Source: Sanyastnella coralliicola
GTDB lineage: Bacteria > Bacteroidota > Bacteroidia > Flavobacteriales_D > Sanyastnellaceae
Assembly (NCBI RefSeq): GCF_030845195.1
Contig: NZ_CP132543.1
Span: 3,055,501 to 3,119,500, forward strand
Direction: 5' to 3'
DNA length: 64,000 bases
Position numbers and translations under genes: made by a program. The notes under the pieces are model-generated. The model made no database searches. It was not told where the DNA came from and worked only from the letters and a program-made list of their open reading frames with translations. Position 1 is the stretch's first letter. Each line of letters begins with the position of its first letter. This document shows positions 16,887-59,089 of this stretch, in pieces.

Positions 16887-17887
16887 GAAGGTTGATCATT
16901 GCCATATCATTCCTGGTAGGACTGTCTGCTTCCGCGCTAGCGCAAGACACGCAGTTCACGCAATTCTACGCGGCACCAACCTACATGAACCCAGCGTTCG
17001 CAGGTACCACGGTGCAAAGTCGTTTGAGCGCCAACTACCGCAACCAATGGCCAGCCATTCCTGGTGCCTGGGTCGCATACAACGCGTCATACGACCACTA
17101 TGTACCAGAATTCAGCAGTGGATTCGGACTCATTGCCACCCGCGAACAAGCCGGTACCGGAGCACTCCGAAGCACTACCGTTGGTTTGCAATACGCCTAT
17201 GAAATCCAGTTGAATCGTGAGTTGTACATCCGTCCTGCCCTGCAGTTCTCGTACAGCAATCGAAACATCAGCTTCAGCAACCTCACTTTCAGTGACCAGT
17301 TGATTCGCGACAATGCCGCGACTACCTTGGAGGATGTTCCTGAACCGATCAACTTCTTCGATATGGGTACAGGGGTGTTGTTGTACAGTCCGAAGTATTG
17401 GATTGGCGCAGCGATTCACCACTTGAACCAGCCGAACGAAAGCATCTACCCAGACAAGACATCTTTGATCCCACGTCGTCTATCCCTCCACGGAGGATAC
17501 CGCATGAAGGTGGGCAAAGGCGGCCTCTACCGCAAGCAAGGAAACGCGATGCTTTTCGCTTTCAACTACCTCCAACAAGCAGAATTCAGTCAGCTCGACC
17601 TCGGAGCCTACCTCGAACTTGAACCGATCGTCATCGGCCTCTGGTACCGCGGACTCCCAGGCATCAAGAGCAACAATTACGGCTACATCAATCACGACGC
17701 CATCGCCGTGATGCTCGGCTACGGTACCCACCAATTCCGATTCGGGTACAGCTATGACATCACCCTCTCCCAGCTCAGCCTCGGCATGACCGCAGGATCT
17801 CACGAGCTCTCCATGGTCTACGAATGGGCAAACAAACGCAACGGAAGACTGGGGAAGAAGAGGATTATTCCGTGTGCGAAGTTCTAA
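16883..17887 (+). CDS. PorP/SprF family T9SS outer membrane protein
   Basis: 334 aa, ATGA overlap with the preceding stop. Signal peptide MRRLIIAISFLVGLSASALA, then the family hallmark QDTQFTQFYAAPTYMNPAFAG and a beta-barrel-like sequence with regular aromatic strands. SprF-type proteins are needed for export or surface attachment of type B substrates encoded next to them; here that would be the PKD adhesin. The C-terminus (KKRIIPCAKF) is close to the repeat region that follows. Confidence 0.9.
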   Translation: MRRLIIAISFLVGLSASALAQDTQFTQFYAAPTYMNPAFAGTTVQSRLSANYRNQWPAIPGAWVAYNASYDHYVPEFSSGFGLIATREQAGTGALRSTTVGLQYAYEIQLNRELYIRPALQFSYSNRNISFSNLTFSDQLIRDNAATTLEDVPEPINFFDMGTGVLLYSPKYWIGAAIHHLNQPNESIYPDKTSLIPRRLSLHGGYRMKVGKGGLYRKQGNAMLFAFNYLQQAEFSQLDLGAYLELEPIVIGLWYRGLPGIKSNNYGYINHDAIAVMLGYGTHQFRFGYSYDITLSQLSLGMTAGSHELSMVYEWANKRNGRLGKKRIIPCAKF

Positions 17888-18072: not shown

Positions 18073-18579
18073 CTAAAAGACGGATGCCATCTGATCGCAT
18101 CGCCCACGGTGCAATCCCTACCAAAGAACAGGTATAAAGAGAAGGCTTCACCTTGCGCAGCCAAAATCGGACGCCGGACGCCGGACGTCGGGCAAATCCC
18201 AGACCCAGATGGATTTCATCCATCTCTACATTTCACTCTATCAACATCAAAAACAAAGGCGCATAAATGCGCCGCTAAAGGACTAGAAGAATAATAAATA
18301 ATGAATCGTGATTAGTGAATGGTGAATGTGCTCTGAGCCCGAGTTCATTATTCTTTATTCATTCTTTATTAATCAAAGCGGCTGCGCAAGGCGCAGCCAA
18401 ATTCGGACGCCGGACGCCGGACGCCGGACGCCGGGGTAAAACATGCCTTAGGCCATATGCCCAATTCCCATTTCGCCATTTAGCCTTTTCGCCAGTTCGC
18501 CCTTAAAAAAACGGACGCCGGATGCCGGACGCCGGACCCCCCAGGCCGTAAGCCATAGGTCTCGTTAAACCGAAAAACC
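18073..18579. repeat. Intergenic island 6: hairpins plus heptad words
   Basis: No gene seen. Contains hairpins AGATGGAT-TTC-ATCCATCT (about 18208-18226), GGCGCAT-AA-ATGCGCC (18258-18273) and GGCTGCGC-AAG-GCGCAGCC (about 18370-18390). It also holds an AT-rich heptad block (18289-18374) and GGACGCC repeats (18163-18187, 18406-18436, 18512-18537). Heptad register can be followed from about 18406 to 18560. Plus-strand stretches that look open here are repeat translations, not genes. Confidence 0.8.
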
Positions 18580-18609: not shown

Positions 18610-19887
18610 ATGGCCTTCTCTTATACCAAAGCATTGACCGCTTTGCAGAAACTCTCTGAAGTTCATGACATTGAAACCTTATTGCAGAAACTGAATCCGA
18701 CGGAGACGCCTGACGTGGTTCGTTCTGGATTTCCTTCTCGTGATCTATTGAACCTGCATGCGATGGATGCACGGGTGGAGTTTTTAGAAGAAAATACCGG
18801 CGCTAAGTTGGATCTCTTGGCTCGAAATAAGCCGATTGATGACCTGAATGTACTCGAAGGGAATATCGAAAACTACATCGGGATGAGTCGTGTTCCGACC
18901 GGGGTGATTGGTCCGATTAAAGTGATTGGCTCTGCGGCGGATGGCGATTTCTTTGTACCGTTAGCAACGAGTGAAGGAGCCTTGATTGCGAGCTATCACC
19001 GTGGAGCGAAAGCTACCTTCTTGGCTGGTGGAGTGCGCTCTGTTTGTTTGACGCAGGGAGTTCAACGCGCGCCTTTGTTCCGATTTAAGAACCTAGGTGA
19101 ACTGGGTACCTTCTTGCTTTGGTTGCTCCCGTTGGAAGATAAATTCCGCGAAATCGTTTCACAGACAAGTCGTTACGCGCAACTGGATGACCTTAGTACG
19201 AATATCGAAGGAAACCAACTGACCCTTTTGTTCAACTACATCACGGGTGACGCTTCAGGACAAAACATGGTGACCATCTGTACGGATGCGATTTGCCAGT
19301 GGATCATTCAAAACTGTCCGGTTCAACCGGAATGTTGGTACGTGGAAGGAAACTTCTCGGGTGATAAAAAAGCTACAGCGCAGTCTTTCCTCAATGTGCG
19401 CGGAAAAAAGGTGACTGCTGAGACTGAATTACCGAAAGAGGTGATCGAAGGGGTCTTGAAAACCAGTGCCGACAAGATTGCTCAGTACTGTCAATCGTCG
19501 ACCTTAGGAACGATTCAAAGTGGAAGTATTGGGGCGCAAGGACATTACGCCAACGGACTCGCAGCACTATTCATCGCCACAGGACAAGATGCCGCTTGTG
19601 TTTCAGAAGCCGCTGTGGGGATCACGCGTATGGAAGCACGAAAGGATGGCAGTTTGTACGCTGCAGTGACCCTGCCAAACCTCATCGTGGGAACCGTTGG
19701 TGGAGGAACCGCCCTCCCAACGCAACGAGAGTGTCTTGAACTGATGGATTGTTACGGACCGGACAAGGCACGAAAGTTCGCGGAAATTGCGGCTGCGATG
19801 GTCTTGGCTGGAGAGTTATCGATTGCCTCAGCATTGAGTGCCGGACATTTCACCAGTGCACACGAACGTCTTGGACGGAAGAAATGA
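18610..19887 (+). CDS. mvaA: Class I hydroxymethylglutaryl-CoA reductase
   Basis: 425 aa. Reduces HMG-CoA to mevalonate, the committed step of the mevalonate isoprenoid route. All family motifs are present in order: ENYIGMSRVPTGVIGP, the catalytic Glu in LATSEGALIASYHRG, ITGDASGQNMVT with the catalytic Asp, VEGNFSGDKK with the catalytic Lys, GTVGGGTALPTQ, and the catalytic His in LSAGHFTSAHERLGR. The ENYIG motif and NADPH-type pattern place it with the eukaryote-like class I enzymes, common in Flavobacteriia. First gene of the operon; its TGA overlaps the next ATG. Confidence 0.95.
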   Translation: MAFSYTKALTALQKLSEVHDIETLLQKLNPTETPDVVRSGFPSRDLLNLHAMDARVEFLEENTGAKLDLLARNKPIDDLNVLEGNIENYIGMSRVPTGVIGPIKVIGSAADGDFFVPLATSEGALIASYHRGAKATFLAGGVRSVCLTQGVQRAPLFRFKNLGELGTFLLWLLPLEDKFREIVSQTSRYAQLDDLSTNIEGNQLTLLFNYITGDASGQNMVTICTDAICQWIIQNCPVQPECWYVEGNFSGDKKATAQSFLNVRGKKVTAETELPKEVIEGVLKTSADKIAQYCQSSTLGTIQSGSIGAQGHYANGLAALFIATGQDAACVSEAAVGITRMEARKDGSLYAAVTLPNLIVGTVGGGTALPTQRECLELMDCYGPDKARKFAEIAAAMVLAGELSIASALSAGHFTSAHERLGRKK

Positions 19888-20804
19888 GCAATGAAAAACC
19901 ACTGATCGGTCGATTCCTCACCTATCAAAAGGAACGGTTTCCCTTCCTGACGCATGGGATCCTGATTGGTGCGTTTACTTTTAGTGCCATTGCCTATGCC
20001 CGACTGAGCGCCGGTTTCGATGACTTTATTGAATGGAAACGTTTCGCTGTTTGCCTCTTCAATACGATCGGTATTTTCTTCCTCCTGAGAGTCTTCGACG
20101 AACATAAAGACCTCGAAGATGACCAGCGCTATCGTCCTGATTTACCTGTATCGCGCGGTCTGATCTCACTACCTGAACTACGCATCTTTGGAATCTCCTT
20201 TTTCGTGTTGATGGTGGCGATAGACCTGTGGCTCTATCCGAAAATCTTGCTGCCCCTCGGCTTAGTAATGGTGTGGATGATGCTTATGGGCAAAGAGTTC
20301 TTTGTGGCGGAATGGCTGAAAGCACGGCAATTCTGGTACGTGGTTTCGCATATGCTCATCATCCCTTTTGTAGACGTGTTCGCGAGTAGTTTTGATTGGT
20401 ATATCGATGGACGTCAAGCACCCATCGGACTCGCCATTTTCTTCGCAGTGTCGTTCATGAACGGCATTGTGCTGGAAGTAGGACGAAAATTACGCGCACC
20501 CGACGAAGAACGCGAAGGCGTGCTCACCTACTCTTCTATGCTCGGAGCGCGAAAAGCCATTCACTTGTGGATTGCTTGTCTCTTTGCTACCGCGGCGCTG
20601 GCGGCATTTGCATGCATCTATGGTGGTTTTCATCCGGCCTGCTTGATTGTGTTGAGTGTAAACCTGCTGCTTTGTTTGGTTGTTGGACTTCGCTATCGCG
20701 GAAACCAAAGCTCCAAGAATGCGAAGACCATGGAAGTGATCTCTGGAATCTGGAGCATCATGATGTACCTCACGATTGGTGGACTACCTTTTCTCTTAAC
20801 TTGA
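19884..20804 (+). CDS. UbiA-like prenyltransferase family membrane protein
   Basis: 306 aa from the ATG at 19884 (ATGA overlap); the frame is open further upstream but that part lies inside mvaA. About eight hydrophobic segments. Residues 72-91 (DEHKDLEDDQRYRPDLPVSRG) match the UbiA first Asp-rich motif ND-x2-D-x3-D with D-E in place of N-D, followed by the usual RP...SRG. The second motif is weak (APDEEREGVLTYSSMLG near 205-222). UbiA enzymes move prenyl chains from diphosphates to acceptors; the acceptor here is unknown. Could also be a phosphotransferase-like relative. Confidence 0.7.
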   Translation: MSNEKPLIGRFLTYQKERFPFLTHGILIGAFTFSAIAYARLSAGFDDFIEWKRFAVCLFNTIGIFFLLRVFDEHKDLEDDQRYRPDLPVSRGLISLPELRIFGISFFVLMVAIDLWLYPKILLPLGLVMVWMMLMGKEFFVAEWLKARQFWYVVSHMLIIPFVDVFASSFDWYIDGRQAPIGLAIFFAVSFMNGIVLEVGRKLRAPDEEREGVLTYSSMLGARKAIHLWIACLFATAALAAFACIYGGFHPACLIVLSVNLLLCLVVGLRYRGNQSSKNAKTMEVISGIWSIMMYLTIGGLPFLLT

Positions 20805-20810
20805 TGAGGA

Positions 20811-23297
20811 ATGGGTAGTCAGGCTCAAAAGACAGATATCGGCGGAAAGGCTTGGCATCTTCAACAGATGAAGGATGCCGGACTTCCTGTACCCGATTTT
20901 ATGGTCATCGCGGCAGATGACTTTTTGAATCCGGAAACGCTTGACGCGAAGATTCAAGAAGTTCAAACCCACTTTCAAGGAACGTCGTGGTTAGCCGTGC
21001 GCTCTTCGGCTGCTGATGAAGACGGCAGTGACCACTCGTTTGCGGGTCTCTTTGAGACCTTGCTCTTTGTCGCACCCAATGACTTAAAAGAGGCCATTCA
21101 AAAGGTTCACCGTTCCGCGAACAGCGAAAGAATTAATACCTACCTAAAAGAAAAAGGCATTACTCAGGGAATGCGCATGGCCGTGATCATCCAAGAAATG
21201 ATCGACGCGCGAAGTGCCGGGGTGGCCTTTGGCATTGACCCGGTTTCGGGTGAAGAACACACGGTGATTAATGCAGTCTATGGGGTTGGTGAAGGACTGG
21301 TAAGCGGCGCATTGAATGCTGATTCTTTTGTGGTGACCAATGGTGATGTCAAGGCACAGCTCACGCAGAAAACCCATGCGTTTAAACTGGATCACGAGAA
21401 CGGAGGCGTAATCGAACAAGCTATAGATGCATCACTACAGGAAGTAGCTTCGATCTCGGATCAAGAAGCACGAGACATTGCGAACCAAGCGGCCAAGTTA
21501 GAAGCGCTCTTCGGTTCGCCCCAAGACGTAGAATGGGCAATCGCAGGAACTCAACTGTACATTCTGCAGTCGAGACCCATCACCAGTGTGCGCAAAAGAG
21601 ACCGCACCGAAATGATTGTGTGGGACAACAGCAACATCATCGAATCCTATCCCGGGTTGAGTAGTCCGCTCACCTTTTCTTTCATCAAGAAGATGTACTC
21701 TGCGGTGTATCGCGAAATGAGCTTGATCATGGGGGTCACTGCCAAGGAAATCGACGCGAACGCCTTTGTATTCGACAACATGCTGGGGCTCCTGAAAGGA
21801 CGTGTGTACTACAACCTCCTCTCGTGGTACAAAGCCCTGGCCTTACTGCCGGGCTATGACCTCAACGCTGAGTTCATGGAGCGCATGATGGGCGTTAAAG
21901 AACGCTTTGAACTGCAGGGTCATGTGCAGACATCAAAGTGGAAGGCCTACCTGCGGGTGGCTCGTTTAGTGGTCATCATGATTCGTAACTACCGCCGACT
22001 TCCGCGCGAGCGAAAAGCATTTCAGTCACATTTTCAACAGGTACTATCAAGCTACCATGTCCTCGCGTTGGATGAGCTTTCGGATACCGCATTGATGCAT
22101 CACTATTTGGCATTTGAAGAACGCTTGACTAAAAACTGGCAAGCGCCGTTGGTGAATGATTTCTTCGCCATGATCTTCTTTGGTGTGACGCAGAAGTTGA
22201 CGGAGAAGTACAAGCTCCCTGAAGGCATTCACAATGATCTGCTGAGTGGGTCGAATGATATTATCAGCACAGAGCATGTCAAGCGAAGCATGGAGATCAT
22301 TCAAGCGATGGATGAGTTCCCTGAACTACCCAAGCATTTCGCGTCGTTGCCAGCGGAAGAGGGAATGGAACACCTCGAAAAGTACCCGAAGATCAAAGCG
22401 CTTGTCAACGATTTTCTACGTGATTTTGGTGACCGTACCGTCGGCGAACTGAAGTTGGAGACGATCACCTTGAAGCAAGCGCCAGAAAAATACATCCGCA
22501 TCCTTCAGAATTACTTGCGCTCTCAGGTTGACCCCACTGATCAGCTCGTGCATGGTGAACGATTGCGGAAAGAAGCCGAGAAGAAACTCGCGCTGGCCTT
22601 GAAAGGAAAGTGGTGGAAGCGTAACGTATACCGATACTTCCTCAAGCGCGCACGCACTTTGGTGAGTGAACGAGAAAACCTCCGCTTCGAACGCACCCGT
22701 GGATTTGGGAAGGTTCGAGAGTTGTTCCTAGCCATTGGAAAACGGTGGGAAGAGCAAGGACATCTCCATGAGCAACGTGACATTTTTTACCTGAAAATGG
22801 AAGAAGTGTTTGATTTCATCAATGGTACCGGACATTCACCGGAACTGAAGGTGCTCATAGATCAACGCAAGAGAGATTACGAAGTTTATGACTCTCTGTA
22901 TTTACCAGAACGCATTGTCACCTATGGGGCCGTGCACGAGAATCAATTGAGTCAAGCGCCACCCGTCATTGCGGAAGAAGGAGACCTTCAGGGCATCGGG
23001 TGTTGTCCGGGAGTGGTGAAAGCGCGAGTGCAAGTGATTCATGATCCGTCAGAAGTAGACAGTTTAAATGGAGACATCTTAGTCACCAGCAGCACCGACC
23101 CAGGATGGATTACCTTGTTCCCAGGAGCCTCTGCTATCATTGTCGAACGTGGGTCACTGTTATCTCACTCGGCGATTGTCAGTCGGGAAATGGGCAAGCC
23201 CTGTATTGTCGCCGTCACCGGTTTATTAAACACCCTGAAGACTGGAGACATGGTTGAAATGGACGGCTCTACGGGAGTGATAAAACGGATTCAATGA
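20811..23297 (+). CDS. PEP synthase / rifampin phosphotransferase-like enzyme
   Basis: 828 aa. The N-terminal ATP-grasp domain has GGKAWHLQQMKDAGLPVPDF, LAVRSSAADEDGSDHSFAGLFET, SAGVAFGIDPVSG and LYILQSRPIT (about residues 1-262). A long middle region follows, then the phosphohistidine swivel domain with GSLLSHSAIVSREMGKPCIV, catalytic His about residue 786. The order ATP-grasp, middle, swivel and the size resemble rifampin phosphotransferases and PEP-synthase-like orphans, not central-metabolic PpsA, whose C-terminal PEP/pyruvate barrel is lacking. Inference: an ATP-driven kinase that phosphorylates a hydroxyl group of a lipid intermediate. Six nt after the UbiA-like gene. Confidence 0.75.
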   Translation: MGSQAQKTDIGGKAWHLQQMKDAGLPVPDFMVIAADDFLNPETLDAKIQEVQTHFQGTSWLAVRSSAADEDGSDHSFAGLFETLLFVAPNDLKEAIQKVHRSANSERINTYLKEKGITQGMRMAVIIQEMIDARSAGVAFGIDPVSGEEHTVINAVYGVGEGLVSGALNADSFVVTNGDVKAQLTQKTHAFKLDHENGGVIEQAIDASLQEVASISDQEARDIANQAAKLEALFGSPQDVEWAIAGTQLYILQSRPITSVRKRDRTEMIVWDNSNIIESYPGLSSPLTFSFIKKMYSAVYREMSLIMGVTAKEIDANAFVFDNMLGLLKGRVYYNLLSWYKALALLPGYDLNAEFMERMMGVKERFELQGHVQTSKWKAYLRVARLVVIMIRNYRRLPRERKAFQSHFQQVLSSYHVLALDELSDTALMHHYLAFEERLTKNWQAPLVNDFFAMIFFGVTQKLTEKYKLPEGIHNDLLSGSNDIISTEHVKRSMEIIQAMDEFPELPKHFASLPAEEGMEHLEKYPKIKALVNDFLRDFGDRTVGELKLETITLKQAPEKYIRILQNYLRSQVDPTDQLVHGERLRKEAEKKLALALKGKWWKRNVYRYFLKRARTLVSERENLRFERTRGFGKVRELFLAIGKRWEEQGHLHEQRDIFYLKMEEVFDFINGTGHSPELKVLIDQRKRDYEVYDSLYLPERIVTYGAVHENQLSQAPPVIAEEGDLQGIGCCPGVVKARVQVIHDPSEVDSLNGDILVTSSTDPGWITLFPGASAIIVERGSLLSHSAIVSREMGKPCIVAVTGLLNTLKTGDMVEMDGSTGVIKRIQ

Positions 23298-24055
23298 TGC
23301 CAGATCAATATTATGCTGAGCTATTCTATGCACCCCAATTCAAATGGATGTGTCTTACGCTCTTGATATTTTTTGTCATTGGCGCGATGGGCCTTTGGCA
23401 TGTGAACAAACGCAAGAGCGACGAAGACAAGAGAGAAGCTTGGAAAAAGTACTTCTTATATCTTTTGATTGTCTGGCCCTTGTTGTTCCTGTTTAGGCAC
23501 TGGGAATCAATGCAAATGATCATGCTAGGGTTCAAAATCGCTCTGGCGATTGGGGCCGTGATTGAGGTAATAATGGTAACCAAAGACAAGCCTCAGTTAA
23601 GAGCCGTATCTCTCATTTTCTTACTCCTCGTTCTTACTTTATTCGTTGGTAGTAGTTCACTCGATTTCAGCTTTGCTGTTATCTTCTTCGGGGTGGTCAT
23701 CTTTGATGGCTTCTCTCAGCTGACCGGTCAACTGATTGGCGGACCAAAAATTCTACCCAAAATCAGTCCGAAAAAAACCATTGGAGGCACCATCGGGGGT
23801 ACCGTCATTACCTGTACTACCTTATACTTCATCATCGGAGACATTCTTCCGTTGACATGGATGTTATACCTCTGTGTCTCTGCTTTCTTTGGCGATTTCT
23901 TCACCTCACTTCTAAAGCGCAAGGCCGAAGTCAAAGACTTCAACAACTTGATTCCCGGACATGGTGGCCTTCTCGATAGATTTGACAGCTTCATCTTCAG
24001 CGTTGCGGCATCGAATTTGCTCCTAATAATTCACTCGATACTGAGCACACCATGA
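23294..24055 (+). CDS. Phosphatidate cytidylyltransferase (CdsA family)
   Basis: 253 aa, ATGA overlap with the previous gene. About seven membrane segments. The family signature is complete near residues 206-233: SLLKRKAEVKDFNNLIPGHGG then LLDRFDS, with the Asp residues that bind magnesium. It converts a phosphatidic-acid-like lipid and CTP into a CDP-activated lipid. A chromosome of this size would normally have a housekeeping cdsA elsewhere, so this copy is probably pathway-specific; that cannot be checked here. Confidence 0.85.
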   Translation: MMPDQYYAELFYAPQFKWMCLTLLIFFVIGAMGLWHVNKRKSDEDKREAWKKYFLYLLIVWPLLFLFRHWESMQMIMLGFKIALAIGAVIEVIMVTKDKPQLRAVSLIFLLLVLTLFVGSSSLDFSFAVIFFGVVIFDGFSQLTGQLIGGPKILPKISPKKTIGGTIGGTVITCTTLYFIIGDILPLTWMLYLCVSAFFGDFFTSLLKRKAEVKDFNNLIPGHGGLLDRFDSFIFSVAASNLLLIIHSILSTP

Positions 24056-24621
24056 AATGGACCATTCCCAACATACTGTCTTTGTACCGCTTGTTGATGT
24101 TTCCTGTGTTGCTCTGGATCATCTATTTGGGAAAAGAAGACCTCTTCGCCATCCTCTTTGTGGTGAGCTTGATCACCGATATTCTCGATGGTTTTATCGC
24201 CCGTCGATTTAACATGGGCAGTGAAATCGGCATCATGCTTGACTCTTGGGCAGATTTCGGCGTGATGATTCTTGCGGTCGTTGGCATGGTGGTGTTTCAC
24301 CCCGTCATACATGAAACCCACGCGATTTGGCTCTGGCTGTTTGTCGGGCTTTACTTGACCCAGCTAGTCATTGCCAAAGTCAAGTTGGGTCTATGGGTAG
24401 CGGGGTGGCATGCCTACAGCACAAAAGTCGCCGGATACACCCAAGGAATCTTTTTCGCCGTACTCTTTGGAATCGGCTTTTTCCCGTGGCTCTTCAAGTT
24501 GGCCGTGATTCTGGGTATCATTACCCAACTCGAACTCATTGCTTTGTGCTTCATCGTACCCGAACCAACGCACAATGTGAAAGGCGTTTACTGGTACTTA
24601 AAGCGTAATAAAGAACAGTAA
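24052..24621 (+). CDS. CDP-alcohol phosphatidyltransferase
   Basis: 189 aa, ATGA overlap. Residues 46-68 carry the exact signature D-G-x2-A-R-x8-G-x3-D-x3-D (DGFIARRFNMGSEIG then IMLDSWAD). About five or six membrane helices. It transfers the phospholipid part of a CDP-lipid to an alcohol such as glycerol-phosphate, inositol or another lipid. The substrate cannot be read from sequence. It follows the CdsA-type enzyme, which would supply its CDP-lipid. Confidence 0.85.
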   Translation: MKWTIPNILSLYRLLMFPVLLWIIYLGKEDLFAILFVVSLITDILDGFIARRFNMGSEIGIMLDSWADFGVMILAVVGMVVFHPVIHETHAIWLWLFVGLYLTQLVIAKVKLGLWVAGWHAYSTKVAGYTQGIFFAVLFGIGFFPWLFKLAVILGIITQLELIALCFIVPEPTHNVKGVYWYLKRNKEQ

Positions 24622-25715
24622 TGGCATCCATCACCAAACGTGCTGACTTTAATTTCCTGCGTTACGCGAACGTTTGGGAAGATGCGGATGTCTTAATGCA
24701 CGCCTTAGGAGGAGCTCCAGACAGAAAATTCTTGAGCATTGCGAGCGCGGGTGATAATTCCCTGAGCTTGTTGACCCTCGACCCCTCCCTAGTGGTAGCG
24801 GTAGATGTGAGTCCGATCCAACTTGCACTGACCGAATTGAAGGCCGTGGCAATCAAAACGCTTTCGCGAGAAGAGTGCATGGCATTCCTTGGATTCCGCG
24901 CTAGCGAGAAAAGAGAACAGACCTATCAACAATTAAGAGGCGCACTATCTCCACCGGCACAAGAGCTGTTTGACGCGCACATCCCCTCGATTGAAAGCGG
25001 GATTGTACACCGAGGTAAATTCGAAGAGTATTTCCGCATCTTCTCTTCCGTTGTCCTGCCCATGATTCATCGAAAGAAAACGGTGCGGCAATTACTCGAA
25101 GAAAAGTCGGCAGAGGACCAAGAACGCTTTTACAACGAGCGTTGGCATAATCGGCGATGGGAATGGCTTTTCCGCATCTTCTTTTCGAAATGGGTCATGG
25201 GAAGATTAGGTCGAGACCCTGAATTCATGAAGGAAGTAGACATTTCTGTCAATCGCTTTATCTTGGATCAAGCAAAGCAGCACTTGAGCACTCCGGCGTG
25301 CCAGCACAATGGAATGCTTCGTTACCAACTGACAGGAAACTTTGGTCATGAGCTCCCTCATTATCTGCAGGAAGCGAATTACGCCAACATTCAAGCGCGC
25401 ATTGATCGTTTGAAATTCTATCAAGGGTATGCCGAAGATGCCATTTCAGAATTTGGCACCTTTCACGGAATGAACTTGAGCAACATTTTCGAATACATGC
25501 CCTTGCCTGTCTTCGAAAGCAGCGCTAAAGCCCTCTCTGACGGACTCAGCGAAGGCGGCAAACTGTGTTATTGGAACCTCATGGTAACGCGTCATGTGCA
25601 TCGAATTGTTGACTCCATTAACTTCGATGAAGTCACAACCAATGCGCAGCGAAAAGTTGACAAGGGCTTCTTTTACAAAGGGGTTGTGATAGAACAAAAA
25701 AAGAATGAGCACTGA
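24621..25715 (+). CDS. DUF3419 / BtaA-like 3-amino-3-carboxypropyl transferase
   Basis: 364 aa, start overlaps the previous stop by one base. N-terminal LRYANVWEDADVLMHALGG, then a SAM-binding Rossmann stretch (FLSIASAGDNSLSLL, VVAVDVSPIQLALTELK) and the later GNFGHELPHYLQEANYANIQ. The pattern matches the BtaA family, which moves the 3-amino-3-carboxypropyl group of SAM to diacylglycerol in betaine-lipid (DGTS) synthesis. The N-methyltransferase BtaB that finishes DGTS is not in the window, so the acceptor or the end product may differ. Confidence 0.8.
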   Translation: MASITKRADFNFLRYANVWEDADVLMHALGGAPDRKFLSIASAGDNSLSLLTLDPSLVVAVDVSPIQLALTELKAVAIKTLSREECMAFLGFRASEKREQTYQQLRGALSPPAQELFDAHIPSIESGIVHRGKFEEYFRIFSSVVLPMIHRKKTVRQLLEEKSAEDQERFYNERWHNRRWEWLFRIFFSKWVMGRLGRDPEFMKEVDISVNRFILDQAKQHLSTPACQHNGMLRYQLTGNFGHELPHYLQEANYANIQARIDRLKFYQGYAEDAISEFGTFHGMNLSNIFEYMPLPVFESSAKALSDGLSEGGKLCYWNLMVTRHVHRIVDSINFDEVTTNAQRKVDKGFFYKGVVIEQKKNEH

Positions 25716-26364
25716 TCTGATCCATTGTCTTCTCCTATCGGGTGCATTCCTGACCCTCTTTCTCGTGGGGGAGATCATGTATCACCGCTTTCAAGTGAGA
25801 GTCGAACTCACCCGCAAGTGGTCGCACTTCGGCACTGGAATTCTTTCCTTGCTCTTCCCCATCCTCTTAAGCAGTCATTGGTATGTGCTTTTCTTGTGCA
25901 GCAGTTTTGCCCTGTTGCTCTTGACCAGCTTACGTTTCAATTTCCTGAAATCGATCAACGCCATCGAACGGAAATCGCATGGCAGCCTGCTTTATCCATT
26001 GGCGGTTTACCTCTGCTTCTTCGCCTTTGAATACAAGGAAGTACAGTACGCCTATTTCTATATTCCTATTCTGACCTTGGCCATTTCTGATCCACTCGCT
26101 GCCCTTGTGGGTAAACGTTTTGGGAAAACCAAGTATCACCTTTGGGGACATGAAAAAAGCTACCTCGGTTCCCTTGCGTTCTTCTTGTCTGCATGTTGTA
26201 TTGCTGCCATCGGAATCGCGCAGATGAATCTTGCATTGACATCCATGATCATGATCACTTTGCTCTTTGCGCTGGTTACCACTATCGTGGAAGCCATGAG
26301 CGGCAATGGTTGGGACAATCTGACCATTCCCCTGAGCGGATTACTCATCTTGCTTATCCTGTAG
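25705..26364 (+). CDS. Dolichol/phytol/diacylglycerol kinase-like membrane protein
   Basis: 219 aa, overlapping the previous gene by 11 nt. Six or seven membrane segments. Motifs RKWSHFGTGI, SDPLAALVGKRFGK, HEKSYLGSLAFF and VEAMSGNGWDNLTIPL match the SEC59/VTE5 group of CTP-dependent polyprenol, phytol and diacylglycerol kinases. It would make a lipid phosphate that the CdsA-like enzyme could activate. Confidence 0.8.
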   Translation: MSTDLIHCLLLSGAFLTLFLVGEIMYHRFQVRVELTRKWSHFGTGILSLLFPILLSSHWYVLFLCSSFALLLLTSLRFNFLKSINAIERKSHGSLLYPLAVYLCFFAFEYKEVQYAYFYIPILTLAISDPLAALVGKRFGKTKYHLWGHEKSYLGSLAFFLSACCIAAIGIAQMNLALTSMIMITLLFALVTTIVEAMSGNGWDNLTIPLSGLLILLIL

Positions 26365-26369
26365 CGTGT

Positions 26370-27356
26370 ATGAAGTTGGAGTGGATCTATGACATAGCAA
26401 CGATTGAAACGGTTCGACAACAACTGGTTGATGATCCTCACGGAACGCGATTAAGTGCTGGGTATGAAGCTGATCTTCTTCATGGCGCCTTGGTGGCATT
26501 TAACGCTAGCGCGGAAGCCGTGGGCATGGTTTGTTTGTACAAGGGTGGACAAATGAAATACCACAACAAACGGGTTTGGTCTTTAGGGAACTACGAGTGG
26601 CTTCCTGATGAGTCGCCTTCTCAGCTTTTTGATCTCGCTAGCGCGGAAGCGAAAAAACACGGTGCCGAAGCCTTGGTGGGCCCACTCAATGGCAGTACGT
26701 GGAAGTCGTATCGTTTTAGGGATCAATCGCAGGAGGAAGTCCCACTATTTGCCGGCGAGAAGATTCATGAACCCCAGTACAACGAGCAATGGAGAAGCTA
26801 CTTCCAGCAACATTTCCGCTATTACTCTGCCCTAGATACCGCGTTCAATACCTCCGCCATCCTAAGCGATCAAGAGATTGCAACGATCCAGGAACGCTAT
26901 GAGCTTCGAAACATCAACTTGAACGAATGGGAGGCTCAATTGGATGCGCTGTATGACTTCAACCAGCGATCCTTCCGAACGAATTTCCTCTTTACTGAGA
27001 TCAGCCGAAAGAGCTTCCACGATCAATACAATCAGGTCAAGCCCATCATTGACCCGCGATTCACCTTGCTCGCGTATGACAACGACCAATTGGTGGGGTT
27101 CATCTTTGCTTATCCTGACTTCTCAATGACCGAATCAAAACGTGCCATTCTAAAAACCGTAGCACGAGACCCCGATCCCAAGCATGCTCGACTGGGAACA
27201 TGGCTCGTCTACTCCCTAAATCAGGTACTGAAAGCCCAAGGATTTCAAGAGGTCATTCATGCCTTCATCTACGCGGAGGGCACGAGTACGAAACACACGC
27301 AAAAGATGGGAATCTCAACCTACGCTACCTACTCGCTTTACCTGAATGAACTCTGA
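26370..27356 (+). CDS. GNAT-like acyltransferase
   Basis: 328 aa from the ATG at 26370, five nt after the previous stop; the frame is open upstream but covers the kinase gene. N-terminal half has ALVAFNASAEAVGMVCLY and GPLNGSTWKSYRF. The C-terminal half has the GNAT-like LLAYDNDQLVGFIFAYPD and ILKTVARDPDPKHARLGTWLVYSLNQ (acyl-CoA-binding loop region). Soluble. Within the operon it could acylate an amino group or a lipid; the substrate is unknown. Confidence 0.6.
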   Translation: MKLEWIYDIATIETVRQQLVDDPHGTRLSAGYEADLLHGALVAFNASAEAVGMVCLYKGGQMKYHNKRVWSLGNYEWLPDESPSQLFDLASAEAKKHGAEALVGPLNGSTWKSYRFRDQSQEEVPLFAGEKIHEPQYNEQWRSYFQQHFRYYSALDTAFNTSAILSDQEIATIQERYELRNINLNEWEAQLDALYDFNQRSFRTNFLFTEISRKSFHDQYNQVKPIIDPRFTLLAYDNDQLVGFIFAYPDFSMTESKRAILKTVARDPDPKHARLGTWLVYSLNQVLKAQGFQEVIHAFIYAEGTSTKHTQKMGISTYATYSLYLNEL

Positions 27357-27937
27357 TGAAGTTATTGAAGTCCATATTGAAATGGCTGTTCATAGCGGGT
27401 ATAACACTCCTCATTTTGGCAGTGGTCTTGAGTCCATACCAGCACTACCCCGGTGAGACGCAACGAGCCATTATCTGCTCGATAGAAATTGACGCTCCGG
27501 TAGAAACCGTCTTCGCTTACCTAGGAGATAGCGACCACGCCAAAGAGTGGTCAGTCTTCGTCGATCACATCACTCCTTTGAACTCCTCAAGCTACCCCGA
27601 TGGCGCCGTCGGCTCTATACGCAGGGCCTTTTGCAACCCCGATGAGAGTGGTATGCGCTGGGACGAGCTGACGACCAAGGTGGTACCCCATGAACTTCGT
27701 CGGCTTGACGTTTATGGCTTTGTAGATTTCCCGATGACTGCCGAGGGGCTATTTACCGAACAACGGTATACTTCCCTACCCGATGGAAAAACACAGCTCG
27801 CATTTACCTTGGAATTTAAGGAGAGTCCGAGTCTTTGGGTTCAATTAAAAACCTCCTTGGGTGCGCATCGAATCGCCTCCATTTTCGACGATAACCTCGA
27901 GAATATCAAACGACTGATTGAAGCTGAAAACCCATGA
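27356..27937 (+). CDS. SRPBCC (START-like) lipid-binding protein with N-terminal membrane anchor
   Basis: 193 aa; start overlaps the previous TGA by one base. One N-terminal membrane helix (about 5-27), then a START/SRPBCC-type sequence: AIICSIEIDAPVETVFAYLGDSDHAKEWSVFVDHITPL ... GAVGSIRRAF ... WDELTTKVVPHELRRLDV ... LEFKESPSLWVQLK. These domains form a hydrophobic pocket. Likely binds or shields an intermediate at the membrane. Confidence 0.65.
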   Translation: MKLLKSILKWLFIAGITLLILAVVLSPYQHYPGETQRAIICSIEIDAPVETVFAYLGDSDHAKEWSVFVDHITPLNSSSYPDGAVGSIRRAFCNPDESGMRWDELTTKVVPHELRRLDVYGFVDFPMTAEGLFTEQRYTSLPDGKTQLAFTLEFKESPSLWVQLKTSLGAHRIASIFDDNLENIKRLIEAENP

Positions 27938-29469
27938 AAGACACCTTGAATATCGTTTCGTTGTTTTTCGCTGAGGCCAAGGCTCACCCCGACCGACTCG
28001 CCATTGCTGACGTCCGTGAAACCATCACTTACCACGAACTCGCTTCGCGCATTCGCGCTCGGGCAGCCCAATTCAAAGCAAAGGGCATTCAAAGCGGTGA
28101 TCGCGTGTTGGTGTTTGTCCCGATGAGCATCGGCCTCTACATCGACAGTCTGGCAATCTTCACCATGGGCGCCACCGCGGTATTTCTCGACGAGTGGGTC
28201 AACTTGAAGCGACTCGACCTTTGTTGTCGGATTGCCCAATGCCGAGCATTCATCGCTCCAACGAAGTTTCGCCTACCTGGAATCATCCTTTCCTCAACGA
28301 TCCGCCAGATTCCGATCAAGATGGGCACCCGTCGCGCCACTGAAAGCAACACCACTCTGGAGCCAGTTTCCATCGATGAAACAAACGAAACCGCTCTCAT
28401 TACCTTCACCACTGGAAGCACGGGCACCCCAAAAGCAGCAAAACGCACCCATGCCTTCCTTCACGAACAGTTCAAAGCACTCCTAGAAAAGATCGACCCT
28501 CAAGACGACGAGATCGACATGCCTGCCTTGCCGATCGTTTTAATGATCAACCTTGCCTGCGGAATTCCATCTATCATCCCCGACTGGAAACCCTCCAAAC
28601 CAACCAAGATGGATCCGTCGAGAATCTGGGATCAGATTGAGCGATTCCAGGTGAATCGTTTAACCTCCTCACCCTATTTCTTGGAGCGACTTTCCGCACA
28701 CATCCTCGAAGAAAAACGAGACACTTCAAACTTTCGAAAACTATTCACTGGCGGGGCTCCTGTATTCCCAACCCAGGCATCCCTCTTCAATGCTGCCTTC
28801 CCCAAAGCCGCAGTCAACATCATTTTCGGATCCACAGAAGCAGAGCCCATTTCGGCCATCAACGCCAAAGAACTGATCACTCACAGCACAACCAAAGAAG
28901 GATTAAACGTGGGTCTTCCCCACCGAACCACCCAAGTGCGCATTATCCAATGGCGTGACGAAACCATCTCCGCTGAATCCGAAGCTGACCTAGACCGCCT
29001 CACGCTACCACCAGGCGAAGTAGGCGAAATCACCGTAGCTGGAGATCACATCTTACGCGAATACTACAACAACCAAGAAGCCCTCCTCCGCAATAAAATC
29101 TTCATAGCAAACCAATGCTGGCACCGCACAGGCGACGGTGGATACATCGCCCCCGACGGCACCCTCAGACTCATGGGCCGCTGCTCTCAATTCATCAACA
29201 CCCCAGAAGGAACCATTTACCCTTTCCTCATCGAACACGAACTCTCCAATCTCAACGGCGTCGTCATCGGCACCCTTCTCGAAATCAACCACCAACTCAC
29301 CTTCGCCATCGAAGCCACCCCAGAAGCCGATCAACAATCCATTCGTGAGTCACTCCAGTCGATGGTCGCAAACGCCAAGGTCATTTTCACCACCATCCCC
29401 AGAGACAAGCGACATCACTCGAAGATTGATTATGGGAGATTGAAGCAAGCGCGAGCGCTTGATTCGTAG
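27934..29469 (+). CDS. AMP-dependent synthetase/ligase
   Basis: 511 aa, ATGA overlap, last gene of the operon. Adenylation motifs in order: TFTTGSTGTPKAAKRTH (A3, about 154-170), FGSTEAEP (A5), RTGDGGYIAPDGTLRLMGR (A7/A8) and a terminal RHHSKIDYGRL with the likely A10 lysine. The A5 core and the lack of a carrier domain resemble fatty-acyl ligases and OleC-like beta-lactone synthetases more than NRPS modules. It probably activates a fatty or hydroxy acid used by the pathway. The stop is eight nt before heptad words begin. Confidence 0.75.
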   Translation: MKDTLNIVSLFFAEAKAHPDRLAIADVRETITYHELASRIRARAAQFKAKGIQSGDRVLVFVPMSIGLYIDSLAIFTMGATAVFLDEWVNLKRLDLCCRIAQCRAFIAPTKFRLPGIILSSTIRQIPIKMGTRRATESNTTLEPVSIDETNETALITFTTGSTGTPKAAKRTHAFLHEQFKALLEKIDPQDDEIDMPALPIVLMINLACGIPSIIPDWKPSKPTKMDPSRIWDQIERFQVNRLTSSPYFLERLSAHILEEKRDTSNFRKLFTGGAPVFPTQASLFNAAFPKAAVNIIFGSTEAEPISAINAKELITHSTTKEGLNVGLPHRTTQVRIIQWRDETISAESEADLDRLTLPPGEVGEITVAGDHILREYYNNQEALLRNKIFIANQCWHRTGDGGYIAPDGTLRLMGRCSQFINTPEGTIYPFLIEHELSNLNGVVIGTLLEINHQLTFAIEATPEADQQSIRESLQSMVANAKVIFTTIPRDKRHHSKIDYGRLKQARALDS

Positions 29470-29909
<440 letters not shown>

Positions 29910-29921: not shown

Positions 29922-30812
29922 ATGGAAGACAACAAACCAAGTCTGATCTCGCGAATAGGAGCCATGTTGCTTGACTACATGATTCTGAACTTCGCGCTTC
30001 CTGTTTTAGGGATGATTTTGATGATTCCTTTCATGTTGGATAAAATTCCGAATGGACCGCCTTCACATGACCCGGAGCCGTTTGAATACACCTATATGAC
30101 ATGCGTCTTTGGAATCATATTCGGAATCCTGTTTGCCAAGGACGTCTTTAAAGGACGAAGCATTGCGAAGCTTGCTTTTAAGCAACAATTGGTGGTGCAT
30201 CGAACAGAAAATACTGCGGGTCCGTTGAGGTCTGTGATTCGGAACTTCACCTTCTTCATTTGGCCCATCGAGTTCATCGCGACTTTGATCAGTCCAGGAA
30301 GAAGAATTGGCGATTTGATTGCAGGAACTCGGGTGATCAAATACGACGGACGAGCTGACTCAGTGAAATGGACTCAAATAATCGTGGCCTACGTTGTCGG
30401 CGTGCTATTCTGTGTCGTGACCCTATTCGGGTTGATGTTTTTAGTAGAAGACATCATCGCCCCGAAGGCCCCGAAATATCTCGAAAGCTCTTACAACGAA
30501 GCGCTCAGCCATGAAATTGAAGACCTCATCACTGCCGACCAGAAGTTAGAGGTAGTTCCTGATGTCCGTTACTATGATCAATTAAAGAATGACTCCACCG
30601 TGAGTTATGTATCGATTCTTTTAGATTATGAATCAGGCATCTCCCGTCAATACGAGGTCGAAGAGCGCATTCAGTTCATCATCACCAACAAAGTAAACGA
30701 CCGTCCACTAATTGGTCGATTCATCCATTTCCATTACCGAACAGGCAATAGTGAAACCAGACGCCATTCGTTTGATTGGACGGAAGAAGAAAAAATAATG
30801 AACAGTAAATAA
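29922..30812 (+). CDS. RDD family membrane protein
   Basis: 296 aa. The RDD domain covers about residues 8-145: LISRIGAMLLDYMILNF, KDVFKGRSIAKLAFKQQLV, GPLRSVIRNFTFFIWPIEF and SPGRRIGDLIAGTRVI, with four or five membrane helices. A soluble tail of about 120 residues follows. The last dozen residues (WTEEEKIMNSK) are encoded by the beginning of the next heptad island (GGAAGAA, AATAATG words), so the original C-terminus has been replaced or extended by repeat DNA. Role of RDD proteins is mostly unknown; some act in ion transport. Confidence 0.8.
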   Translation: MEDNKPSLISRIGAMLLDYMILNFALPVLGMILMIPFMLDKIPNGPPSHDPEPFEYTYMTCVFGIIFGILFAKDVFKGRSIAKLAFKQQLVVHRTENTAGPLRSVIRNFTFFIWPIEFIATLISPGRRIGDLIAGTRVIKYDGRADSVKWTQIIVAYVVGVLFCVVTLFGLMFLVEDIIAPKAPKYLESSYNEALSHEIEDLITADQKLEVVPDVRYYDQLKNDSTVSYVSILLDYESGISRQYEVEERIQFIITNKVNDRPLIGRFIHFHYRTGNSETRRHSFDWTEEEKIMNSK

Positions 30813-31291
30813 TGAATAGTGAATGTGTTCAGAGCCATAGTTCACCATTCAGATTCATTAATTATTATTCATTATTCAAAAGACAGCATACCGCTTACAG
30901 CCTACGGCCTTCGTTTGGATGGATTTCATCTATCTCTACAGATCGTGCTTTTCAATTCCTGTGCAAAGGCGCATAAATCCCGAAGAACGGGACAGGTGCG
31001 CCGCTAAAGGACCGGAAGAATAATAAATAATGATTCGTAAATAATGAATAGTGAATATGATCAGAGCCGTAATTCATTATTCTTTATTCATTAATTATTA
31101 ATCATTATTCAAAAGACAGCATACCGCTTACAGCTTACAGTCTACGTTCGGATCACCCCCACTAACGCCTAAAGCCCAAAGCCTAACGCCTCCCCCACAT
31201 TTCGCCATTTCGCCATTTTGCCATTTCGCCCTAGTTCGAACGCCCGAGCAACATACGCCCTAAGCCATACGCCATAAGCCTGAAAAAACCC
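30783..31291. repeat. Heptad-periodic intergenic island 8 with nested hairpin
   Basis: Starts inside the RDD gene. Two AT-rich heptad blocks (30785-30878, 31016-31110), a GGATGGAT-TTC-ATC hairpin region near 30919, a nested hairpin at 30968-31002 identical in stems to 29728-29762, TTCGCCAT octamers near 31200-31232, and GCCATAC words up to the -7 element. No gene. Confidence 0.85.
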
Positions 31292-58974: not shown

Positions 58975-59089
58975 GCTCTGACTAGGCGTTAGGCTATAGG
59001 CTTTAGGCGTTAGTTCGTAGTCTACCTGAACTATTGAACCTATTTCATTATTCATTAATTACTAATCATTATTTATTATTCCTCCAGTT
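58975..59089. repeat. Heptad-periodic island 16a between murB and its duplicated tail
   Basis: GCGTTAG, GCTATAG, GCTTTAG, GCGTTAG, TTCGTAG ... TATTCAT, TAATTAC, TAATCAT, TATTTAT in register. It corresponds to the inverted orientation of islands 1-5. Confidence 0.85.

Follow-up and report, generated by a model that had tools for sequence, protein, structure and literature searches.

A ten-gene operon of Sanyastnella coralliicola with a conserved core may direct the synthesis of a polar membrane lipid with a fatty-alcohol-derived alkyl group

FcrA is a fatty acyl-CoA reductase derived from HMG-CoA reductase (HMGR), described by Grossi et al. 2025 (PMC11948995). Compared with HMGR, the catalytic residues are kept, S684 is changed to Glu, a pocket lysine to a small residue and L862 to a bulky residue, and the enzyme occurs in genomes without a mevalonate pathway (PMC11948995). 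Activity was demonstrated for enzymes bearing an N-terminal extension, and a function in wax-ester synthesis is established; a role of some FcrA enzymes in ether lipids was suggested by the authors without a test (PMC11948995). The same paper describes the ElbD/plasmalogen-type ether lipid synthesis of Myxococcales, and PMC3533463 reports GGGP synthase in diverse Bacteroidetes. A literature search, with subscription journals mostly outside its coverage, found no description of the gene cluster presented here, and passages of PMC12419801 describe different neighbourhoods.

The window, a stretch of 64,000 nucleotides of the S. coralliicola genome, contains ten open reading frames at 18610-29469, all on the + strand, which according to the ORF listing form one tightly packed operon. 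The junctions between successive genes 1-10 are -4, +6, -4, -4, -1, -11, +5, -1, and -4 nt, with the +5 junction before the GNAT gene counted from its first Met at 26370. The ORF coordinates confirm the initial annotation, which had described a ten-gene operon with gaps of -11 to +6 nt. The + strand neighbours end at 17887 and begin at 29922, leaving spacers of 722 nt upstream and 452 nt downstream. Promoter-like sites showed no excess (10 observed versus 11.8 in shuffles) and terminator-like sites a slight one (17 versus 11.8). Nine of the ten gene products pass their Pfam cut-off; the tenth, the DolK-like gene 7, is sub-threshold, with 17.3 bits against the CTP_transf_1 cut-off of 24.

Seven genes make up the core of the cluster, encoding the HMGR-like, UbiA-like, PEP-synthase-like, DUF3419, DolK-like, GNAT, and AMP ligase proteins. 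At least six of them stand together in 13 scattered Bacteroidota loci, the window included, and a plasmid of Roseinatronobacter (Alphaproteobacteria) carries all seven in the same order as the window. Synteny limited to this strain, a check named beforehand, is contradicted by these 14 loci, and the co-occurrence of the core families is hence not due to chance. The earlier proposal of a lipid-modifying pathway encoded in one operon is supported, as the set is conserved beyond the S. coralliicola strain. The patchy distribution and the plasmid copy suggest that the gene set has probably moved horizontally. The SRPBCC gene is present in six of the 14 core loci. Genes for a CTP-transferase and a CDP-alcohol phosphotransferase co-occur in four, while neither was seen in the stretches retrieved for the other ten, so CDP activation within the cluster is not obligatory.

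Several variants of the cluster were observed. A four-gene block HMGR-DolK-CDPOH-CdsA stands in genome G003 (locus L061). In G106 an HMGR homologue and an APH-type kinase form a single fusion protein, and the genes next in line are CarS-like (below cut-off) and PEP-synthase-like; this arrangement is as expected if phosphorylation comes after reduction. CarS-like proteins are encoded at L016 (Pfam), L017 (by eye), and L097 (below cut-off). Two related variants without the HMGR homologue, L070 and L071, encode an NAD_binding_4 (Male sterility) reductase instead. L022 (G512), L019 (G116), and L072 (G249) have no cluster-type HMGR, and inspection by eye of the stretch retrieved revealed no acyl-CoA reductase; replacement of FcrA by another reductase is not general. 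FcrA-like genes that stand alone, with no recognised lipid gene nearby, are found in G081, G087, G091, and G097; three of these carry E559Q together with D690E, and one carries H866Q.

Gene 1 (18610-19887) encodes a class-I HMGR homologue of 425 aa (Pfam HMG-CoA_red, 387 bits). The human numbering was anchored at E559, which we take to belong to the TTEGCL motif. With this anchor, nine other HMG-site residues of HMGR, listed in PMC7503714, aligned as expected. The gene 1 product retains E559, K691, D767, and H866 and carries the substitutions S684E, K735S, and L862F, so that the catalytic residues are present and the three positions are changed in the manner of FcrA, and the HMG pocket has Glu and Ser at the positions of S684 and K735 in a mevalonate-pathway HMGR. 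S684, K735, and L862 are retained in the human, Arabidopsis, and Methanothermococcus enzymes. Among 22 class-I-like Bacteroidota sequences, position 684 is acidic and K735 missing in all, and L862 is replaced by F or Y in 21, the last having a gap from trimming; all 14 sequences from clusters or mini-clusters retain the four catalytic residues. In a tree with long branches and no characterised FcrA sequence among its rows, the 18 cluster-type rows form a single clade (99/98), separate from canonical class I and class II; all 18 show E at 684, a residue other than K at 735, and F or Y at 862. These substitutions strongly indicate that gene 1 encodes an FcrA-type enzyme, predicted to reduce acyl-CoA to fatty alcohol, in which the changes of S684 and K735 would remove the contacts to the HMG carboxylate. 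PMC11948995 prints the pocket lysine as Lys795; residue 795 of the human enzyme is a cysteine, while all three canonical enzymes have K at 735, and we read the number as a misprint for 735.

In the initial annotation, gene 1 supplied isoprenoids: mevalonate from HMGR would lead to an isoprenoid that the UbiA protein attaches to a polar lipid. The family names favour this reading, as UbiA enzymes are usually prenyltransferases. The host genome, however, contains DXR, a marker of the MEP pathway, and no match to mevalonate diphosphate decarboxylase (MDD), and gene 1 is its sole HMGR match, without a second copy. Thirteen cluster genomes were tested for both markers, G512 and Roseinatronobacter being left out; DXR is present in ten and MDD unmatched in ten. 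The MDD matches in the remaining three, G104, G275, and G181, reach 161-164 bits, all under the curated cut-off of 171. They speak for an isoprenoid product, but these three genomes keep a separate, class II HMGR, which adjoins MDD in G104, and G275 and G181 have MDD without DXR. In G512, class II is the only HMGR. HMG-CoA synthase was dropped as a mevalonate marker in favour of MDD and DXR, since G275 and G181 were missed both by the profile PF01154 (matches in 1 of 20) and by a search with the G104 protein (3 of 26, two marginal). With the HMG-binding residues replaced as well, isoprenoid supply by gene 1 is not supported, and the model of an HMGR-fed isoprenoid attached by UbiA appears very unlikely. 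The loss of the HMG contacts, the FcrA substitutions, and the presence of DXR without MDD suggest that the building block of the pathway is likely a fatty alcohol.

Gene 1 might also make mevalonate, or another non-acyl alcohol, as a head-group or building block and not as an isoprenoid precursor. This would fit the occurrence of an HMGR homologue in MEP genomes that show no MDD and the fusion with an APH-type kinase in G106. A source of HMG-CoA is hinted at by a protein resembling HMG-CoA lyase, which scored 179-210 bits in 12 of the 17 genomes searched (none of the 17 above the cut-off of 246). Yet the other five, the cluster genomes G135, G387, G395, G375, and G324, show only 35-53 bits, and the predicted loss of the carboxylate contacts would affect HMG in this role too. 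As FcrA is a tested precedent with the same substitutions (PMC11948995), the idea was given up as very unlikely. The use of FcrA in wax-ester synthesis (PMC11948995) suggests yet another fate of the fatty alcohol, with the remaining genes as unrelated lipid housekeeping. This is barely conceivable, as Pfam matched no wax synthase among the ten operon genes and the core is kept together across phyla.

A fatty alcohol from gene 1 could be phosphorylated by the product of gene 7 (25705-26364), a polytopic DolK/phytol-kinase-like protein of 219 aa and predicted CTP-dependent lipid-alcohol kinase. Positions that do not vary across an alignment of 13 sequences include R37, H41, G45, D129, G136, K151, G155, E196, D204, N205, and P209. 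CTP_transf_1 is matched by one of ten homologues, below cut-off, the homologues have no relevant NCBIfam match, and profile comparison gave a weak match to CdsA proteins (probability 40%). A model of the protein (pLDDT 67, 3 sequences) matched nothing in the PDB at E 0.001, nor did the DolK profile find anything among solved structures. The DolK family name is our presumption from motifs; with library support only sub-threshold, the name polyprenol/diacylglycerol kinase-like is likewise motif-based. Gene 4 (23294-24055; 253 aa; CTP_transf_1, 120 bits) belongs to the CdsA-type CTP:lipid-phosphate cytidylyltransferases and is the second CTP_transf_1 copy of the genome, a stronger one (190 bits) lying elsewhere. 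It contains the CdsA-type signature, in the pattern that we assume for it. In gene 5 (24052-24621; 189 aa; CDP-OH_P_transf, 77 bits), a CDP-alcohol phosphotransferase, the motif D..DG..AR........G...D...D is intact.

Gene 2 (19884-20804; 306 aa) encodes a divergent UbiA-like intramembrane transferase, with 36.7 bits against the Pfam gathering score of 34.2. All 14 aligned sequences share D72, E73, K75, D76, and D80 of the first acidic motif; the second is rich in Glu, not in Asp. The only match to a solved structure, DGGGP synthase, is not significant (E 0.054). Gene 3 (20811-23297; 828 aa), a PEP-synthase-like phosphotransferase, matches only PPDK_N (197 bits) and PEP-utilizers (81 bits) in Pfam, with no match to the C-terminal PEP-binding domain, and has the histidine motif LSHSAIV. 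Its best PDB matches, 5hv2 and 5fbs, are deposited as PEP synthase, and its NCBIfam matches, all below cut-off, are PRK06241 subgroups, PigC/RedH, and rifamycin phosphotransferase.

Gene 6 (24621-25715; 364 aa; Pfam 204 bits) is conserved among cluster homologues and, as a DUF3419 protein, a candidate BtaA-like SAM-dependent 3-amino-3-carboxypropyl transferase; the DUF3419 profile found nothing among solved structures. Of a BtaA/BtaB pair the DUF3419 member is present, and a Pfam search of the ten gene products (E 0.01) gave no methyltransferase family that would provide a BtaB-type N-methyltransferase. In gene 8 (26370-27356; 328 aa), a GNAT and candidate N-acyltransferase, the Acetyltransf_1 match (28.9 bits) falls in the C-terminal half, and the PDB entries matched by a model of low confidence (pLDDT 61) are tandem GNATs; the protein is probably a tandem GNAT. 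Gene 9 (27356-27937; 193 aa; 43.5 bits) encodes an SRPBCC protein (Polyketide_cyc2). Gene 10 (27934-29469; 511 aa; AMP-binding, 148 bits) belongs to the acyl-CoA/acyl-AMP ligase family, with TTGSTG and TGD motifs; its NCBIfam matches, PRK09274 (341 bits) and two OleC models (194 and 171 bits), are all below cut-off.

These below-cut-off resemblances of gene 10 to PRK09274/OleC and of gene 3 to PigC/RedH, together with the SRPBCC protein, the patchy distribution with one plasmid copy, and an RND-like gene seen by eye in L071, would suit a natural product of alkyl or olefin type that is secreted, in place of a membrane lipid. We regard such a product as unlikely, as characterised CdsA, CDP-alcohol transferase, DUF3419, and DolK-type members act on membrane lipids, and no OleA, PKS/NRPS, or exporter family was matched by Pfam among the ten genes.

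On balance we lean, with some reserve, towards a polar membrane lipid with a fatty-alcohol-derived alkyl group as the product of the operon. A fatty acid would be activated by the AMP ligase; the acyl-CoA would then be reduced with NADPH to the fatty alcohol by the FcrA-type HMGR homologue, the step most strongly indicated by sequence; and the DolK-like membrane protein would phosphorylate the alcohol. Conversion of an alkyl or diacylglyceryl phosphate to a CDP-lipid may fall to CdsA, or in relatives to an enzyme like CarS, and the CDP-alcohol phosphotransferase may then move it to an alcohol. An alkyl- or prenyl-bearing backbone might be built by the UbiA-like and PEP-synthase-like enzymes. 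With SAM as donor, the DUF3419 enzyme could attach a 3-amino-3-carboxypropyl (homoserine) group, whose amine the GNAT could acylate; the SRPBCC protein may be accessory, perhaps a lipid carrier. Much more tentatively, the cluster may represent an undescribed bacterial route to alkyl (ether) membrane lipids in full: an FcrA-derived alcohol, DolK-like/PEP-synthase-like phosphorylation, an alkyl-glycerol (or alkyl-headgroup) bond made by the UbiA family, homoserine from DUF3419, and GNAT acylation, without AGPS/ElbD-type enzymes and spread between phyla by plasmid. If the main reading holds, FcrA enzymes would gain a place in membrane-lipid synthesis, so far only suggested by their discoverers, and HMG-CoA reductase labels would be corrected in bacteria that make no use of mevalonate. 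Functions would be offered for branches of the DUF3419, UbiA-like, and PEP-synthase-like families that have none, and the lipid could be traced in the cultured Roseinatronobacter sp. S2, with the core on a plasmid.

Several known systems share parts of this gene set. As in archaeal phospholipid assembly (DGGGP synthase, CarS), UbiA and CDP-alcohol transferase families occur together, with CarS-like proteins in relatives, but the ten operon genes have no match to GGGP synthase or G1P dehydrogenase. Gene 6 links the operon to the betaine-lipid (DGTS) pathway through DUF3419, the family to which BtaA belongs, whereas the ten genes give no match to a BtaB-type methyltransferase, so that the product would not be a betaine lipid of the known kind. 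Like rifamycin phosphotransferase and PigC-type homologues, gene 3 has ATP-binding and mobile histidine domains and no PEP-binding match, but it has other gene partners and is below all NCBIfam cut-offs. With the ElbD/plasmalogen-type synthesis of Myxococcales the proposed pathway would share the activation of a fatty acid and its reduction to a fatty alcohol that enters a glycerolipid; the operon differs in its separate FcrA-like and ligase genes, its UbiA-like and DolK-like proteins, and the lack of a PlsC or AGPS match among its ten genes. FcrA and gene 1 have in common class-I HMGR homology, catalytic residues, the three substitutions, and a genome without the mevalonate pathway; FcrA in places stands beside WS/DGAT and fadD (PMC11948995), whereas gene 1 lies inside a ten-gene lipid operon.

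All ten ORFs that the initial annotation placed between 18610 and 29469 are present there, on the + strand and with junctions of -11 to +6 nt, which bears out the tight packing. Nine of the ten proteins reach their Pfam cut-offs, while the one called kinase-like falls below (17.3 bits vs 24), and its DolK assignment is weak. The GNAT gene starts with the ATG at 26370, a start backed by homologues, and the operon's + strand neighbours lie beyond spacers of 722 and 452 nt. In these spacers, copies of a dispersed repeat flank the operon on both sides, adjoining runs of gacgccg-type repeats; a 25-nt probe (0-3 mismatches) found five copies in the window (18290-18314, 29527-29551, 29779-29803, 31019-31043, 59056-59080) vs 0 in 100 shuffles.

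To describe the HMGR-like enzyme (gene 1; 18610..19887, +), human HMGR numbering, verified on a printed PDB alignment, was used. The catalytic residues E559, K691, D767 and H866 are retained in 13 sequences linked to the cluster (for that of genome G395, through its coordinates alone) as well as in the mini-cluster of genome G003. S684 and K735 belong to the HMG-site residues given in PMC7503714. Where the human, plant and archaeal enzymes have Ser at position 684, 18/18 cluster-clade sequences have Glu and four distant ones Glu (three) or Asp (one); K735 is replaced in 22/22 sequences, by S, T, A, V, M or H. L862 is changed to F or Y throughout the cluster clade (18/18) and to F in three of the four distant sequences, the fourth having a gap from trimming. 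According to PMC11948995, the class-I HMGR homologue FcrA converts acyl-CoA to fatty alcohol and does not reduce HMG-CoA; in FcrA, S684 is replaced by Glu, the pocket lysine by a small residue and L862 by a bulky one. Judged from its residues, the active site of gene 1 strongly indicates a fatty acyl-CoA reductase. In a tree that contained no characterised FcrA, 18 cluster-type rows stand apart from canonical class I (99/98) and from class II; finer placement is unsure because of long branches.

The initial annotation had assigned the HMG-CoA reductase to isoprenoid supply. This role is not upheld, as the host genome has the MEP enzyme DXR, a search for diphosphomevalonate decarboxylase (MDD) gave no match, and the cluster gene is its sole HMGR. 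Among 13 cluster genomes (G395 included; G512 and Roseinatronobacter left out), DXR is found in ten and MDD, always under the curated cut-off, in three (G104, G275, G181); both occur in G104 and neither in the incomplete G101. The three MDD genomes have a second HMGR, of class II, which was unmatched in the other ten. HMG-CoA synthase searches were too insensitive to inform the mevalonate question. In G104 (loci L105 and L108), MDD and class II HMGR genes are adjacent, alongside two genes that by eye are GHMP-kinase-like; another contig carries an HMG-CoA synthase gene. Bacteria with FcrA and no canonical HMGR are described in PMC11948995 as missing other mevalonate enzymes too. The cluster HMGR very probably does not feed isoprenoids.

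FcrA-like genes also occur outside the cluster, some with altered catalytic residues. Those at loci L026, L027, L102 and L103 (genomes G081, G087, G091, G097) have no recognised lipid neighbours, and three of them carry Q at Glu559. Plasmid genes labelled hydroxymethylglutaryl-CoA reductase, with 38-51% identity to gene 1, were seen in Vibrio fluvialis (L113), Alteromonas macleodii (L114; downstream of AMP-binding, SDR and 'thermostable hemolysin' genes) and Sinorhizobium meliloti (L115; flanked by acyl-CoA carboxylase and biotin carboxylase genes). These labels may be wrong.

Conserved synteny, by which the initial annotation proposed to check the gene set, is found outside the strain. The DUF3419 protein matched in 7/120 relatives (host counted), six strongly (E < 1e-90), and a profile search over the phylum matched 46/395 genomes, 12 at E < 1e-60. 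Neighbourhoods were fetched for 17 of the 46, and cluster genes were read by tblastn. Six or all seven of the core genes (HMGR-like, UbiA-like, PEP-synthase-like, DUF3419, DolK-like, GNAT, AMP ligase) lie together in 14 loci: the window, genomes G001, G104, G100, G101 and G044 (each over two contigs), locus L022 (a Saprospiraceae MAG), genomes G275, G181, G135, G387, G375 and G324, and a Roseinatronobacter sp. S2 plasmid. DUF3419, DolK-like, GNAT, ligase and UbiA-like genes are present in 14/14, the HMGR-like gene in 13 (exception L022) and the PEP-synthase-like gene in 13 (none seen in G101, 71% complete and broken there). SRPBCC occurs in six; the CDP-alcohol transferase occurs in four, together with a CTP-transferase that is CdsA in the window and G001 and CarS-like in loci L016 (Pfam) and L017 (by eye). 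In G387, G375 and G324, GNAT and ligase genes lie upstream, not downstream, of the HMGR-like gene. In G395, cluster-type HMGR and DUF3419 genes are 3.7 kb apart on one contig, and seven weaker DUF3419 loci (G178, G352, G198, G182, G252, G205 and G260) and G311 gave no other cluster-gene match by tblastn. Among the 120 relatives, cluster-type HMGR (E < 1e-130) is found in 6/6 strong-DUF3419 genomes vs 5/114 others (Fisher p 1.3e-7, uncorrected for kinship).

In a plasmid search, one record combined matches to the UbiA-like, PEP-synthase-like and DUF3419 proteins: plasmid unnamed3 of Roseinatronobacter sp. S2, an alphaproteobacterium from an alkaline spring. Its order, HMGR-like (spanning the record origin), UbiA, PEP-synthase-like, DUF3419, DolK-like, GNAT and AMP ligase, is that of the window minus genes 4, 5 and 9; the DolK-like and GNAT genes, annotated as hypothetical, match the cluster profiles at 1e-56 and 9e-56. 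By eye, and outside the residue counts, its HMGR-like protein has Glu at 684, Phe at 862 and no Lys at 735. The core in the window's order on a plasmid from another phylum argues for transfer of the cluster as a cassette. Another PEP-synthase-like gene, on a Streptomyces clavuligerus plasmid (L116), adjoins AfsA-like and isoprenylcysteine-methyltransferase genes.

The NAD_binding_4 (Male sterility) family has known fatty-alcohol-forming members. Such a reductase is encoded in two related loci from genomes without HMGR, L070 and L071, with UbiA-like (Pfam match absent in L071), PEP-synthase-like, DUF3419 and GNAT-like genes; L070 adds phosphatidylserine-decarboxylase and diacylglycerol-kinase family proteins, and L071 a decarboxylase judged by eye only. 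Genome G003 has a four-gene block of HMGR-like, DolK-like, CDP-alcohol transferase and CdsA genes; in G106, a fusion of an HMGR homologue with an APH-type kinase precedes CarS-like (below cut-off) and PEP-synthase-like genes; and in G116 an APH-type kinase gene adjoins DUF3419 and ligase genes, at the DolK-like gene's place in core loci. Together, these swaps and modules suggest a pathway order in which acyl-CoA is reduced to alcohol, the alcohol is phosphorylated and a CDP-lipid is used. The G106 locus (L097:9268-17202) continues with methyltransferase and desaturase genes and is possibly a further lipid cluster. No Male sterility-type reductase was seen by eye in the HMGR-less or FcrA-less loci L022, L019 and L072. 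In L072 (9073-10935, genome G249), DUF3419 is fused behind an N-terminal membrane domain, isoprenylcysteine-methyltransferase-like by eye, and DAG-kinase-like and GNAT-like genes adjoin.

From family chemistry, the ligase would activate an acyl chain, which gene 1, as a strongly indicated second step, would reduce as acyl-CoA to fatty alcohol. The DolK-like kinase may then form an alkyl phosphate, and CdsA or CarS with the CDP-alcohol transferase would transfer a head group. As a second copy in the host genome, the CdsA of the cluster is likely dedicated to it. The UbiA-like and PEP-synthase-like enzymes may build the backbone, DUF3419 would add a SAM-derived aminocarboxypropyl group, and the GNAT is a candidate for N-acylation; the substrates of the UbiA-like, PEP-synthase-like and GNAT enzymes are not legible from sequence. 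Some related loci without any recognised acyl-CoA reductase, the lone FcrA-like genes without a cluster, and the weak DolK assignment speak against this reading. On balance we lean towards an alkyl-containing, homoserine-modified polar lipid as the product; a bolder reading, a new route in which the UbiA-like enzyme makes an alkyl ether bond, appears rather unlikely.

Among the open-access matches listed by literature searches on this operon or its parts, no report of the operon was found, and we rate it as a probable lipid-biosynthesis operon. FcrA itself is already known, and its authors suggest an ether-lipid role for some FcrA (PMC11948995); the window enzyme agrees with FcrA on every sequence feature compared.
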